From: an uncultured Saprospiraceae bacterium | GTDB taxonomy: Bacteria; Bacteroidota; Bacteroidia; Chitinophagales; Saprospiraceae | Assembly (NCBI GenBank): GCA_937125475.1 | Contig: CAKZLL010000024.1 | Location: forward strand, 1-47,286 | Reading direction: 5' to 3' | Length of the DNA: 47,286 bases | In this document: piece by piece, positions 21,481-47,286 of the stretch | Numbering within the stretch: the stretch's first letter is position 1 | Layout of the letters: the number at the start of each line of letters is the position of its first letter | The notes under the pieces: generated by a model | Databases searched by the model: none | Told to the model about the DNA's origin: nothing | The model's input: the letters and a program-made list of their open reading frames with translations, nothing else | Translations under genes and position numbers: made by a program

Positions 21481-21492
21481 AACAAATAGCGA

Positions 21493-21586
21493 TTTTAACT
21501 TTTTTTAAGAAAATAGTTTACTCTTGAGGTAAAAAACAATTTTAACTTTTTTTGCTAAAATAGTTTACTCTTAAAGCAAAAAATAA
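21493..21586. repeat. Tandem 47-bp duplication in the fabH leader
   Basis: Two adjacent copies (21493-21539 and 21540-21586) agree at 40 of 47 positions. The shared core is AAAATAGTTTACTCTT, preceded in both by TTTTAACTTTTTTT. They lie between the fabH start and its likely -7 box, hence in the 5' untranslated RNA. The upstream copy could fold by TTTTTTGC with GCAAAAAAA on the minus strand; the downstream copy has lost the GC part of that stem. Confidence 0.85.
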
Positions 21587-21597
21587 TTTAAAGATTG

Positions 21598-32443: not shown

Positions 32444-33313
32444 ATGACATTAACAAGCACAGAAATCGGATATAGTTTATTAATTTTAGTTGGATTTTTG
32501 ATTGGTTTTATTCTATTTATGAGACATTATTTTAATAAAAATACTACTCAACTCATTATGAATAAAGTGAGTGCTAGCATTAAAATTAAAAAGCATTCAA
32601 AAGTTGATATTTTAAAATTTCAAACCACTAATTGGCTCTTTGGACTGGCTTGCTCTCTTGCTTTAGTTGTGTTATTATTGAGCTATTCTAAACCAGAGGG
32701 AATGATTGATGAGGACTTGATTGATAGAGAGAATATAGATGATATTGAAATAGATATACCTCGAACGATTACACTCGTTGCTCCTCCGCCTATACCACCT
32801 CTTCCAGTAATTGAAGAACTTCCAGAAGAAAATATTGAATTTTCGAGTATAGAAACTGATACAATCAAACCAGATACTGTTGTAATAAAAGAAAAAAAAA
32901 TAACAGATCCGTTAGCTCAAGGAGAGGAAGAAGAGGAAATTATAGAGGAAGTATTCACACGAGTAGAACAGATGCCCGTTTTTCCTGGTTGTGAAGATTT
33001 AGAAACCGAGAAAGAAAGAAAAAAATGTACAGAAACCAATCTATTAAAATTTATGTACAAAAATTTAAAATATCCTAGAATTGCTAGAGAAAATGGAATT
33101 CAAGGTCCTACTGTAGTTGAATTTACTATAGGTAAAGATGGTTCGGTTATTAATATCGAATTAATAAAAGATCCTGGAAGTGGATGGGGAGAAGAGGTTT
33201 TACGTGTCATAAGTTCAATGAATGAACAGCTTCCTAAATGGAAACCTGGTTATCAAAGAAATCAACCCGTAAAGGTGAAATATATGATGCCGCTCCGAAT
33301 ACGTTTACACTAA
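32444..33313 (+). CDS. TonB-like energy transducer, paralogue 1
   Basis: A 289-residue protein with two N-terminal membrane segments (about 8-28 and 66-86, the second in WLFGLACSLALVVLLLSY), an acidic and Pro-rich periplasmic stretch, then a TonB C-terminal domain: VFTRVEQMPVFPGCEDLE, KKCTETNLLKFMYKNLKYP, ENGIQGPTVVEFTIGKDGSV, KWKPGYQRNQPVKVKY. Two Cys in PGCED and KKCTE are conserved across the paralogues and could form a disulphide. It transmits energy from the inner membrane to outer-membrane receptors. Close relative of the gene at 42386-43282. Confidence 0.9.
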   Translation: MTLTSTEIGYSLLILVGFLIGFILFMRHYFNKNTTQLIMNKVSASIKIKKHSKVDILKFQTTNWLFGLACSLALVVLLLSYSKPEGMIDEDLIDRENIDDIEIDIPRTITLVAPPPIPPLPVIEELPEENIEFSSIETDTIKPDTVVIKEKKITDPLAQGEEEEEIIEEVFTRVEQMPVFPGCEDLETEKERKKCTETNLLKFMYKNLKYPRIARENGIQGPTVVEFTIGKDGSVINIELIKDPGSGWGEEVLRVISSMNEQLPKWKPGYQRNQPVKVKYMMPLRIRLH

Positions 33314-42385: not shown

Positions 42386-43282
42386 CTACTGTAATCTAAA
42401 ACGAATAGGCATAGTATATTTTACTTTTACAGGCTGCCTTCTTTGGTCACCTGGCTTCCATTTTTGTGGCATATTATTCATCATATTAACCACTCGAACA
42501 GCTTCTTCTCCACATCCACCTCCGATGTCTTTCACTAATTCTACATCTTTAACAGAACCGTCTTTATCTACAACGAACATTACAACTACTGGTCCTTGAA
42601 TACCATTTTCTTTGGCAATCGCAGGGTATTTGATGTTTTTGTACATGAACTTCAACATGTTAGTCTCCGTACATTTTTTACGTTCCTTTTCTGTTGGTAA
42701 ATCTTCACAACCAGGAAATACAGGCATATTCTCTACACGAGTGAATATTTCTTCAATGATTTCTTCTTCTGGCTCTTCTTCTACAATCTCAGGAGCTTCA
42801 ACAACCTCTTCAACTGTTTCTTCAACAGGATCTACATCAACGATTTCTTCTTCGTCAAATTCTTGACTTTCGAATTCGATGTCTTCTTCCACTTCTTCAT
42901 CAGGAACTTCTTCAATTACTGGTGGTGGTGGTGGTGGTGGCGGTGGTGGTGGTGGTGCAGTACGAGGAATCTCTTGCTCGATATCATCGATACTTTCCAT
43001 TACCAACAAATCTTCGTCGATTATTTTCTCAAACTTAGTATAGCTAAAAAGCAATACTGTCAATGCTACTGAACATGCTAGTCCAAATAGCCAGTTAGTT
43101 GTGCTATATCCAAAAGCATTCGCTTCATTATGCTTTTTAACTTTTGCACCTGCGCCACTTTTGCTCATGGCTAGTTTAGGAGCATTGCTATTAAAATAAC
43201 CTCTCATCAGGAAAATAATCCCAATAGTTAGTCCAGCAAGTACCAATAAACCATAGCCGATTCCGGCTCCTGTTAATGCCAT
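42386..43282 (-). CDS. TonB-like energy transducer, paralogue 2
   Basis: A 298-residue transducer with the same layout as the 32444 gene: membrane segments at about 8-28 and 64-84, a stretch of twelve Pro then an acidic VEEDIEFESQEFDEEEIVDV linker spanning the periplasm, then the TonB domain (VENMPVFPGCEDLPTEKER, FMYKNIKYPAIAKENGIQGP, KWKPGDQRRQPVKVKYTMP). The Pro tract comes from a (GGT)n-type repeat, so its length may vary. It faces gcvH's gene upstream on the same strand (75 bp gap). Confidence 0.92.
   Translation of the reverse strand: MALTGAGIGYGLLVLAGLTIGIIFLMRGYFNSNAPKLAMSKSGAGAKVKKHNEANAFGYSTTNWLFGLACSVALTVLLFSYTKFEKIIDEDLLVMESIDDIEQEIPRTAPPPPPPPPPPPPVIEEVPDEEVEEDIEFESQEFDEEEIVDVDPVEETVEEVVEAPEIVEEEPEEEIIEEIFTRVENMPVFPGCEDLPTEKERKKCTETNMLKFMYKNIKYPAIAKENGIQGPVVVMFVVDKDGSVKDVELVKDIGGGCGEEAVRVVNMMNNMPQKWKPGDQRRQPVKVKYTMPIRFRLQ
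42921..42956. repeat. Trinucleotide repeat encoding polyproline
   Basis: Twelve consecutive GGT/GGC triplets on the plus strand (only one GGC) encode the Pro tract of the TonB-like protein. Slippage here would change linker length by single prolines without a frameshift. Confidence 0.9.
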
Positions 43283-43357: not shown

Positions 43358-43744
43358 TTAATTGTTAATAAGTGCTGCGTATTCGTCAGCAGATAATAGA
43401 TCATCTAATTCACTCAGATCACTAATTTTTATTTTTACTAACCATCCTTTTTCATAAGGATCCTCATTGAGGATTTCAGGCTGATCATCTAAGATTTCAT
43501 TAATTTCTGTTATTGTTCCTGATATTGGAGCAATAATATCTGATACAGATTTAACAGATTCTACTGACCCAAATTGATCTCCTTTTGTAATTGAATCATC
43601 TACTTCTCCGTCAACCTCAACAAATACTAGATCTCCAAGTTCTGATTGAGCATGATCACTAATACCAATTGTAGCATGATCACCTTCAATACTAACCCAT
43701 TCATGATCTTCTGAATATTTTAATCCTGTTGGAATATTACTCAT
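43358..43744 (-). CDS. gcvH: Glycine cleavage system H protein
   Basis: Lipoyl carrier of the glycine cleavage system, shuttling the methylamine intermediate between P, T and L proteins. 128 residues. Lipoyl-accepting Lys65 sits in [15 protein letters not shown]; other marks are [24 protein letters not shown] and [14 protein letters not shown]. Shares strand and a short gap with the TonB-like gene downstream. Confidence 0.97.
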
Positions 43745-43815: not shown

Positions 43816-43950
43816 AACTTTTTTTATATAAATATAACGAGAGAATGTATCATTTTTTGTTTTGTAATATGTAAGTGATTAATTCTGTGTTAAAATTTTC
43901 ACATAAAACATGAAAAAAGCGTGATAACTTCATTTCTTGGGGTTATTTTT

Positions 43951-44220
43951 CTGTTTTTAGAAGCCTACATTTAAGTAGATGTTAATTTTTTGTTTTTTGG
44001 TGTATGGTTATTTTATTTTTTTTAAAAAAAACTTAAAAAGTTCTTTCTCTTCTGTTTTTAGAAGCCTACATTTAAGTAGATGTTAACTTTTTATTTTTTG
44101 GTGTATGATTATTTTATTTTTTTAAAAAAACTTAAAAAGTTCTTTCTCTTCTGTTTTTTGAAACCTACATTTAAGTAGATGTTAACTTTTTATTTTTTGG
44201 TGTGTCTTATTAAAAAAAAC
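43951..44220. repeat. Tandem repeat of about 100 bp, 2.7 copies
   Basis: Copies begin at 43951, 44052 and 44151 (units of 101 and 99 bp, third copy partial), each starting CTGTTTTTAGAAGCCTACAT or a close variant and ending CTTAAAAAGTTCTTTCTCTT. Copies 1 and 2 differ at only a few positions. Each unit carries CTACATTTAAGTAG (a small inverted repeat) and AACTTAAAAAGTT. The third copy stops at the end of the tonB-like gene remnant. No reading frame. Confidence 0.9.
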
Positions 44221-44231
44221 AGGCATTATTT

Positions 44232-44415
44232 GGTTCTTTATGATTTTATGTGATGATTAATAATATCTTTTTTATTCTAAGCTTTTAACCTCCCCTAACC
44301 CCTCCAAAGGAGGGGAATCTAGCCAGTTGCTCCCCTCCTTTGGAGGGGCTGGGGGAGGTTAAAAACTTAGAGAATTAATCTTTTTAAAATCGACCACATA
44401 AAATCATAAAGAACC
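44232..44415. mobile_element. MITE-like element, 184 bp, with 8-bp target duplication, inside a tonB-like gene
   Basis: Terminal inverted repeats of 21 bp are perfect (44232-44252, starting GGTTCTTTATG, with 44395-44415), and the pairing continues inward to a strong core palindrome (44283-44316 with 44331-44364) that itself contains CCCCTCCAAAGGAGGGG hairpins. The 8-mer CATTATTT flanks both ends (44224-44231 and 44416-44423). No transposase. Its minus-strand left end supplies the last codons (G-S-L-stop) of the interrupted gene. The CCCCTCC core is a repeat seen often in Bacteroidota intergenic regions. Confidence 0.9.
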
Positions 44416-45063
44416 CATTATTTCAACTATATATATACAGATTTCTTCTTCAAAATCCTCTTCTTCTTGAATTGGAGCAACTACTTTTTTTATTTTCTCT
44501 ATAAAATCTTCTGCATTAAAATCGATTTCTTCGTCCAAATATTGATCGAAGTTTTCCGTTTCTTCTATTTCTACTGGAAGAGGTGGAGGCGAAGGAATAA
44601 TCTGATTATCGAAATGATTCTTTTCATGAAAAGAAATCACACTATTCTCATTGAATTCGACTGCTTCTATAATCGCTTCATTTGGAACAACCTCTATTTT
44701 TATAGGCGGTGGCAATGGAGGAGGAGGTACTGACGGATAACCAAAATGAAGGGAATCTAATTCGCATGAATAATCTATTAATAAATCTGGATCTATAACA
44801 GGCTCGTACTTTACCCAACTAAACACCAAAATCACGCAGCTTAAAGAATAGATCAAACCCACTCGAAAAAAATCCTTTCTAAATTGAAAGACATTGACTT
44901 CGGAGTATTTTTTAATTTTTATTGATGGGATTTTTTCCTCGTTTTTTGCCAGAAGAGCGGTTGTTCGTTCGGCAAGTTTGACTTTAATAGCGAAAATAAG
45001 CCCGATTAAAGCTATTACTCCGAATAGAAAATAAACCAATATTTGATTTTCAGTAAAAGTCAT
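44404..45063 (-). pseudogene. TonB-like energy transducer, paralogue 3, truncated by an insertion
   Basis: The surviving 219 codons match the N-terminal half of the TonB-like family: membrane segments (about 8-26 and 66-84), a linker with VPPPPLPPPIKIEVVPNEAI, and an acidic stretch ending EEDFEEEICIYIVEIM. The paralogues continue there with F-T-R-V-E-x-M-P-V-F-P-G-C. Here the frame enters the element at 44415 and stops at 44404. Beyond the element, the sequence resumes in frame as P-V-F, then departs into the tandem repeat without the rest of the TonB domain. Probably non-functional, or a receptor-less anchor. Confidence 0.85.
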
Positions 45064-45344: not shown

Positions 45345-45599
45345 ATGAAAAAACTAAAAGAAAACTTGATTGAGCTTATTTCGGATAGACTAGGTGTAGA
45401 AGAAAAGGAAGTGACACTTCAAGCTAGTTTTACCAATGATCTTGGAGCTGATTCACTGGATACAGTAGAGCTAATTATGGCTTTTGAACAAGTATTTGAA
45501 TTGGAAATTCCTGATATGGATGCTGAGAAATTGCCAACAGTAGGAGCTGCATTGAATTATCTAACAGAAAAACTAAAAGAGAAATCGACTAAGAATTAG
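45345..45599 (+). CDS. acpP: Acyl carrier protein
   Basis: Carries fatty-acid intermediates on phosphopantetheine. 84 residues, acidic, with the attachment Ser37 in [20 protein letters not shown]; the helix II pattern after it is typical. The start codon lies 36 bp after a TTCCTTTG sequence (45302-45309) that is one base off the -7 consensus. Followed by fabF, 285 bp downstream, past a terminator. Confidence 0.97.
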
Positions 45600-45884: not shown

Positions 45885-47126
45885 ATGTTGAAAAGAGTAG
45901 TTGTTACAGGAATAGGCGCTATTACGCCAATTGGTAATAATATTGCAGAATATTGGGCGGGTTTATCTAATGGTGTGAGTGGTGCTGGGCCAATCACTTT
46001 ATTTGATAGCACAGAATTTAAAACGCAATTTGCTTGTGAAGTAAAGAATTTTGATGCTACTCAGTTCATGCCGAAAAAGGAGGTACGCCGCTCAGATAGA
46101 TTTGCGCTTTTGGGTATGCTAACCCGAGATCAAGCCCTCGAAGATGCGGGTTTAGATTCATCAAAATTGGATTTGGATCGCGTGGGTGTAATTTGGGGAG
46201 CAGGTATTGGCGGATTGCAGTCTTTAGAAAGTGAGGTTACTGCAAATAGTAAAGGAGGAAGACCTAGATATAGCCCTTTTTTAATTCCTAAAATGATTAT
46301 TGATATTGTTTCTGGTCATATTTCTATTAAATATGGTTATCGAGGCATTAATTATTCTACAGTTTCGGCTTGTGCTACTTCGACGCATGCAATTATCAAT
46401 GCGACGGATTATATTCGTTTAGGCAAAGCAGATGTTATTGTAACAGGCGGATCAGAAGCAACTATTACTAAAGTCGGTATTGGTGGTTTTAATTCAATGA
46501 GAGCGCTTTCTGTTCGTAATGATGATCCTGCAACGGCTTCTCGTCCTTTTGATTTAAATAGAGATGGCTTCGTGATGGGCGAAGGTGGAGGCGGTTTGGT
46601 ATTGGAAGAATATGAACATGCTAAAGCTCGTGGTGCTAAAATTTATGGTGAAGTAGTTGGAACAGGTATGACAGCAGACGCGCATCATATTACGGCTCCT
46701 CATCCTGAAGGCATTGGCGCAGCAAACGTGATGAAATTGGCACTAAAAGAAGCTAAAATGAATCCAGAAGATATTGATTATGTCAATGTTCATGGTACTT
46801 CTACTCCTTTGGGTGATGTTGCAGAATTGCAAGGTATTCAAAAAGTATTTGGTGAAGCAGCTTATGGTTTAAATATTAGTTCGACGAAATCAATGACTGG
46901 GCATTTGTTAGGTGCAGCAGGTGCAGTGGAAACAATTGCAGGTATTCTGGCAATGAAACATGGTGTTGTACCTCCGACAATCAATCATTTTACGGATGAT
47001 CCAAATATTGATTCAAGGTTGAATTTAACTTACAATACAGCTCAAGAGAAAAAAGTAAAAGCAATATTATCCAATACTTTTGGATTTGGTGGGCATAATG
47101 CTTCGGTTATTGTAAAAGCAATATAA
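45885..47126 (+). CDS. fabF: Beta-ketoacyl-ACP synthase II
   Basis: Condenses acyl chains with malonyl-ACP during elongation. 413 residues. Catalytic Cys163 in TVSACATSTHAI, His in NVHGTSTPLGD and His in STKSMTGHLLGAAG; also the N-terminal VVVTGIGAITPIGN and RDGFVMGEGGGGLVLEEYEHA. acpP-fabF is a standard pairing. Confidence 0.97.
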   Translation: MLKRVVVTGIGAITPIGNNIAEYWAGLSNGVSGAGPITLFDSTEFKTQFACEVKNFDATQFMPKKEVRRSDRFALLGMLTRDQALEDAGLDSSKLDLDRVGVIWGAGIGGLQSLESEVTANSKGGRPRYSPFLIPKMIIDIVSGHISIKYGYRGINYSTVSACATSTHAIINATDYIRLGKADVIVTGGSEATITKVGIGGFNSMRALSVRNDDPATASRPFDLNRDGFVMGEGGGGLVLEEYEHAKARGAKIYGEVVGTGMTADAHHITAPHPEGIGAANVMKLALKEAKMNPEDIDYVNVHGTSTPLGDVAELQGIQKVFGEAAYGLNISSTKSMTGHLLGAAGAVETIAGILAMKHGVVPPTINHFTDDPNIDSRLNLTYNTAQEKKVKAILSNTFGFGGHNASVIVKAI

Positions 47127-47148
47127 GTAGAGTTATCTATTAATTTTT

Positions 47149-47195
47149 ATAAAAGAAGGGTCGAACATTTCGTGAATGTTCGACCCTTCTTTTAT
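47149..47195 (+). terminator. Terminator of fabF
   Basis: A perfect 21-bp stem (arms 47149-47169 and 47175-47195, core GGGTCGAACATT) with a 5-nt loop, TCGTG. It can act in both directions. The remaining 91 bp to the window edge hold no gene I can support. Confidence 0.92.
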
Positions 47196-47286
47196 ATGGT
47201 TCATTGACAATTTTTGCCCTTTATTCCAATGTGGGCTTGCTCCATTGATCTAACTCTTTGAAAAACAACGGGGCAGGCGAGCGTTG

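Follow-up and report, generated by a model that had tools for sequence, protein, structure and literature searches.

A palindromic MITE with a predicted triplex core interrupts a tonB homologue in an uncultured Saprospiraceae bacterium

Related mobile and palindromic elements

Several described systems resemble parts of the element analyzed here, a 184-bp palindrome in a 47,286-nucleotide contig of an uncultured Saprospiraceae bacterium (CAKZLL010000024.1, below called the window). The draft genome that contains the window, G000, comprises 5.76 Mb in 559 contigs. Insertion sequences (ISs) of the ISL3 family (PF01610, NF033550) and their MITEs make 8-bp target duplications and have ends starting with GGnTCT, as does our element. 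An IS with the same ends as our element also encodes a C-terminal peptide that resembles ISL3 transposases. In contrast to ISL3 IS/MITE pairs, the MITE and the IS here share only about 21-23 bp at each end, and the transposase gene is known from terminal pieces.

In Coxiella burnetii, QMITE2 is a MITE of about 190 bp built around an internal REP palindrome, and its end-less copies resemble REPs and are found in distant genera (PMC5896051). QMITE2, however, has one shell and a GTAG REP, whereas here at least three or four shells, which differ in their ends and in the length of the duplication, enclose a pair of predicted triplex motifs. The triplex motif (TM), BoxC and PIT elements of E. coli and others are explicitly reported to have no association with mobile elements (PMC4666352). 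The E. coli motif, CCCTCGCCCCTTTGGGGAGAGGGTTAGGGAGAGGGG, follows the same pyrimidine-TTT-purine-TTA-purine plan as ours, is likewise of the G/C-rich class II on one strand and sometimes occurs in inverted pairs, but its arms are ~10 nt long instead of 7 nt, and the pair described here sits inside MITEs with exact target duplications (PMC4666352). Within Bacteroidota, BrickBuilt and 464/PgRS of Porphyromonas gingivalis are MITEs with similar ends and unrelated interiors. In the portion of that account considered here, these interiors are tandem repeats and not palindromes, and one interior behind different ends is not seen (PMC4596501). Like the single triplex unit elsewhere in Bacteroidota, Rickettsia palindromic elements lie in frame in conserved genes (PMC10969869). 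They are ~150 bp long, and unlike them, the window element is out of frame and truncates its gene. In the open-licence papers that we searched, which give weak evidence of absence, a triplex pair common to several mobile shells was not found.

Our overall reading, to which we assign a probability of roughly 0.87, is that a MITE mobilized by an ISL3-type transposase inserted in a tonB homologue, that its interior is a separate triplex module, and that loss of the TonB_C domain from the gene was a second event.

The element, its copies and its putative partner

The element lies at positions 44232-44415 and is a non-coding, near-perfect palindrome. The first-pass annotation had described its limits, its perfect 21-bp ends and a flanking duplication, CATTATTT, and all of these were reproduced on the window sequence. 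The left terminal inverted repeat, GGTTCTTTATGATTTTATGTG (44232-44252, plus strand), recurs as its perfect reverse complement at the right end (44395-44415, minus strand), and these ends define the TIR-A family. The two copies of CATTATTT, at 44224-44231 and 44416-44423, are a duplication of exactly 8 bp, as the neighbouring bases differ. The entire element forms a single end-to-end hairpin, with z = -14.6 as DNA and z = -16.2 as RNA against 200 dinucleotide shuffles. It is shorter than 500 bp, contains no ORF, has eight copies whose duplications are all exactly 8 bp, and has its TIR-A ends in common with an autonomous-type element in the same genome (contigs C369, C395 and C6). This makes it a MITE.

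Copies in G000 were counted as search matches. Five complete TIR-A copies lie within contigs and are 99-100% identical, and each has its own exact 8-bp duplication, different from the others (AAAAAATA, AAAAATTA, ATATAATT, CATTATTT and CTAAAAAA). Repeats are the places where short-read assembly breaks, so that element ends come to lie at contig ends. Among the 66 pairs that 12 such ends can form, the outer 8 bp agreed in exactly four, each time between a left and a right end of one element type. Three of these pairs are further MITE copies with the duplications AAAATTAA, AAAAACTT and AGACTTTT, and the fourth is a full-length IS that joins C369 with C6 and has the 8-bp duplication AAATGTTT. In total, G000 holds at least eight MITE copies, each with an exact and different 8-bp duplication. 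The first-pass annotation had proposed such a survey, and copies elsewhere that lack 8-bp duplications would have spoken against its insertion reading; the duplication is exact in all eight. Because the duplications match, misassembly at the copy sites is very unlikely. Two of the five within-contig copies are located in reading frames; a second within-contig copy, at 1501-1684 of locus L003 (contig C257), splits a gene whose empty site is a continuous frame of 128 codons. Exact TIR-A was absent from the viral collection, and spread of the element by viruses was rejected on this ground.

The putative partner is seen in C369, C395 and C6, where the sequence next to TIR-A is not that of the MITE and reads as the start and the end of an ORF. 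The left end of the IS reads into MNLLEIFEE. At the right end, the encoded peptide is FKKMVLFIFGVIQPRIPNST*, which to the eye is like the transposase tail FKNMIYFIAGK of the ISL3 element L187. The interior of the IS is missing from the assembly, and its transposase is visible at the contig ends as ~20 C-terminal and 9 N-terminal residues. The 20-residue C-terminal piece had no match in Pfam. NCBIfam assigns L187 and a further element, L186, to ISL3 (E about 1e-95); both have ends that begin GGCTCTATGA and are flanked by exact 8-bp duplications. The likeness between TIR-A and the L187 end is moderate, with 38 of 5000 shuffles equally good. The 8-bp duplication of the MITE is the one expected of an ISL3 derivative, and ISL3 elements of the order also duplicate 8 bp. 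On this sequence evidence, the IS with TIR-A ends is likely ISL3-type. Its transposase, from the full-length ISs, would recognize the 21-bp ends of the MITE, and the MITE would insert with an 8-bp duplication of an AT-rich target.

When 398 genomes of the order were searched for ISL3, none of the loci retrieved held an ISL3 element with TIR-A; of these loci, L187 has the most similar ends. In three of the five ISL3-searched relatives that bear TIR-A-type ends (G001, G016 and G061), no ISL3 transposase was found. Two ISL3 copies were considered as partners and rejected: C101, the sole assembled ISL3 gene in G000, is decayed and has no matching ends, and the ends of the copy on C170 of genome G062 differ. 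Separately, positions 47198-47218 of the window, ~90 bp from the contig end, read GGTTCATTGACAATTTTTGCC, close to the end of an ISL3 element in L079 (GGTTCTTTGACAATTTTTGCA), and are possibly part of another IS at the assembly break.

The interrupted gene and a second breakpoint

The truncated tonB-like gene (44404-45063, minus strand) reads ...IYIVEIM up to the element. Its own coding sequence extends to VEIM, and its final residues, GSL*, are supplied by the MITE. The empty site reads VEIMPVFFNKTHQKIKS*. For comparison, the two intact tonB paralogues of the window carry the motifs RVEQMPVFPGC (gene at 32444-33313, plus strand; motif near 32963) and RVENMPVFPGC (gene at 42386-43282, minus strand; motif near 42736). 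TonB_C is present in both window paralogues and in both same-genus homologues, where it comes directly after this V-E-x-M-P-x-F-P-G-C motif, and is absent from the 44404-45063 frame.

An uninterrupted counterpart occurs in G001, a same-genus genome of an uncultured Saprospiraceae bacterium (record CAKZLT01). Between the end of its contig C367 and acpP-fabF lies a 300-aa tonB orthologue with TonB_C; in the window, the syntenic markers are the acyl carrier protein gene acpP (45345-45599, plus strand) and a fabF-like ketoacyl synthase gene (45885-47126, plus strand). This orthologue, with 32% overall protein identity, is our empty-site comparator, and it is uninterrupted at the motif. From the letters of the window, insertion into the TonB-domain motif had already been proposed, with the advice to look for an empty site in relatives, where the lack of any homologous uninterrupted gene would have weakened the case. 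The 8-bp duplications and the intact syntenic orthologue of G001 bear the proposal out: the MITE has inserted into a tonB homologue.

The join across the empty site is less clean than first described. Excision was said to restore VEIMPVF in frame; the join was reproduced and the proline codon clearly derives from the gene, but the codons for V-F may also come from the neighbouring DNA. Past CCT, the letters that encode V-F, GTTTTTTTTAA, agree both with the paralogues and with the run of T in the repeat next to them. The shared GTTTTT is a microhomology, and this short stretch probably marks a second breakpoint. The gene meets tandem repeats of a ~100-bp unit 9 bp past the MITE. The array, of about 2.5 copies (43949-44203), lies between the truncated gene and its neighbour gcvH (glycine cleavage H protein; 43358-43744, minus strand) and takes the place of the lost tonB 3' end. 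The claim that the rest of the TonB domain was lost separately is right, as the empty-site frame still stops 11 codons past VEIM. The repeats resemble the region upstream of gcvH in G001 (alignment score 126; best score among shuffles 115), and the 3' part of tonB was therefore probably replaced by duplicated gcvH-upstream DNA.

The chances seem evenly balanced that tonB was already a pseudogene, joined to the gcvH-upstream repeats, when the MITE inserted into this non-functional DNA close to the breakpoint. This sequence of events is favoured by the early stop in the empty-site frame and by the likeness of the repeats to the G001 region, but it has to contend with 217 codons that are still open before the insertion and with MITE copies so nearly identical that both events could be recent. 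In our preferred reading, one insertion in the TonB-domain motif would have ended the protein three residues into the element, and TonB_C would have been lost in another event, by which the gene became fused to duplicated gcvH-upstream DNA.

The window contains further repeats. Directly 3' of fabF, a perfect 22-bp inverted repeat with a 5-nt loop (47148-47196) is terminator-like. A perfect 14-bp tandem repeat is present in 5.5 copies at 2620-2696, and a 47-bp repeat in 2.1 copies at 21492-21589.

The predicted triplex core and its proposed exchange between shells

The hairpin core of the MITE (44268-44363; element positions 37-132) is homologous to the cores of MITE families with other ends. 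Each half of the core has the form CCTCCC[C/T]-nnn-[C/T]CCCTCC-nnn-GGAGGG[G/A], with three 7-nt arms that fit the layout of an intrastrand triplex. Motif 1 (44289-44315), of class II on the minus strand, reads CCCCTCC-TTT-GGAGGGG-TTA-GGGGAGG, and motif 2 (44332-44358, plus strand), which is inverted relative to it, reads CCCCTCC-TTT-GGAGGGG-CTG-GGGGAGG. A generic scan of the 47-kb window for a pyrimidine arm, a complementary purine arm and a mirror third arm (6-15 nt; loops of 1-6 nt) returned these as two perfect 7-triad motifs with loops of 3 and 3, the sole G/C-rich perfect ones in the window. For the variable triad, the search pattern limited the first two bases to C/T and left the third base free. 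Of 56 distinct units, 54 have C,C,G or T,T,A here, among them 24 of the 25 units that the phylum sample contributed from beyond the genus, where single units prevail. In a plain hairpin, the third base would not need to match the other two. Covariation between the paired hairpins is not our main evidence, since gene conversion can make inverted copies alike; the triad test on single units avoids this. The core is an inverted pair of intrastrand triplex motifs, the folding of which is predicted. We know of no triplex layout in Rickettsia palindromic elements.

Searching with the 184-bp element gave many matches beyond the TIR-A copies, and these are other MITE families with a homologous centre. 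TIR-B elements (GGGTGTATAACAAATTGTCG, 114-159 bp) were examined at ten places in G000 and have exact 8-bp duplications at seven. TIR-C (GGGTGCATCTCAAAATGTCGC) occurs at two places in G000 with 8-bp duplications, and in G001 a homologous core is enclosed by TIR-D (CATACTACTATACATTTT), with two sites that show exact duplications of 9 bp. TIR-A shells, for their part, hold quite different palindromes in G001 (shells of 173-201 bp), G016 and JANSWP01, most of them with 8-bp duplications. Because homologous cores occur behind other ends and TIR-A encloses other palindromes, transposon ends (the shell) and hairpin core are, judged by their sequences, separate and exchangeable modules. Neither the triplex pair shared by several families nor the interrupted gene on C257 appears in the first-pass annotation. 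The G001 loci L214-L243 belong to a MITE family, large and decayed, that has TIR-A ends around a GCTACCGCTGTTTCGATTAACAGCGGTAGC palindrome, and this palindrome was found without TIR-A ends at 6 of 30 places examined.

Single units are widespread outside such shells. The 27-nt unit pattern was found in 16 of 395 genomes of the phylum, mostly at places without trace of MITE ends, and the reversed control pattern in none. In several Bacteroidota families, a single unit lies in frame within T9SS-type C-terminal sorting domains (L147, L148, L153, L154, L155, L158 and L159, near position 1500), where it encodes ASLNPSKGGT or ASLNPSQGGT. At L136, L137, L144, L156, L157 and L161, the unit is in frame, in either orientation, in long conserved reading frames that by eye are leucyl-tRNA synthetase-like, methylmalonyl-CoA mutase-like and MeaB-like, and encodes ASPNPSKGGE or its reverse reading. 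A literature search on the unit sequence and its peptide returned no relevant paper. REP/REPIN elements associated with RAYT flank a Y1 (TnpA-REP) transposase gene. The genomes do contain such genes, but of 23 Y1 matches in five genomes none has a unit within about 1.5 kb, and mobilization of the core by RAYT was rejected.

The most likely route of a core from one MITE shell to another would be recombination or template switching that involves two palindromes. Alternatively, an independently mobile triplex or palindromic repeat may have entered each MITE family, with no exchange between MITEs. Single units are common away from MITE ends and lie within genes of other families, which indicates that a unit can disperse alone, and such nested insertion is possible, if somewhat short of an even chance. 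However, the cores of TIR-A and TIR-B have ~20 bp of left flank in common outside the units, and those of TIR-B and TIR-D the spacer between units, which looks like inheritance of the whole paired core, and an unsystematic look recognized no duplication around the core within a shell. We regard it as unlikely that cores without terminal repeats are remnants of MITEs whose ends have decayed away, as was proposed for small QMITE2 copies (PMC5896051), and that the core does not exist independently. The Coxiella precedent, the location of most G000 cores inside shells and the truncation of several of them (L101-L103) fit with this, but single units occur phylum-wide, mostly with no trace of such ends, and also in frame within conserved proteins. 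That the element is a static palindromic repeat, REP/BIME-like or terminator-like, with no transposon involved and a coincidental fit to the gene, is scarcely credible: core units do occur without transposon ends and the entire element is a strong hairpin, but the exact and mutually different duplications of the eight copies start precisely at the ends, which refutes this idea for the 184-bp unit, while the empty sites of two copies restore the reading and the orthologue is uninterrupted.

Within our preferred reading of exchange between shells, we suggest, as a rather doubtful extension, that paired triplex motifs, possibly by stalling replication, promote template switching, so that the core is repackaged behind the ends of different transposases.

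Taken alone, a MITE in a tonB-like gene is ordinary. Less routine is a triplex pair as the payload of several MITE families that differ in their ends and in duplication length, and this opens the dispersal of triplex and REP-like repeats, and the swapping of palindromic cores between transposons, to testing. If such repackaging by template switching does take place, it would provide a dispersal route for the widespread triplex repeats, the spread of which has so far lacked an explanation.
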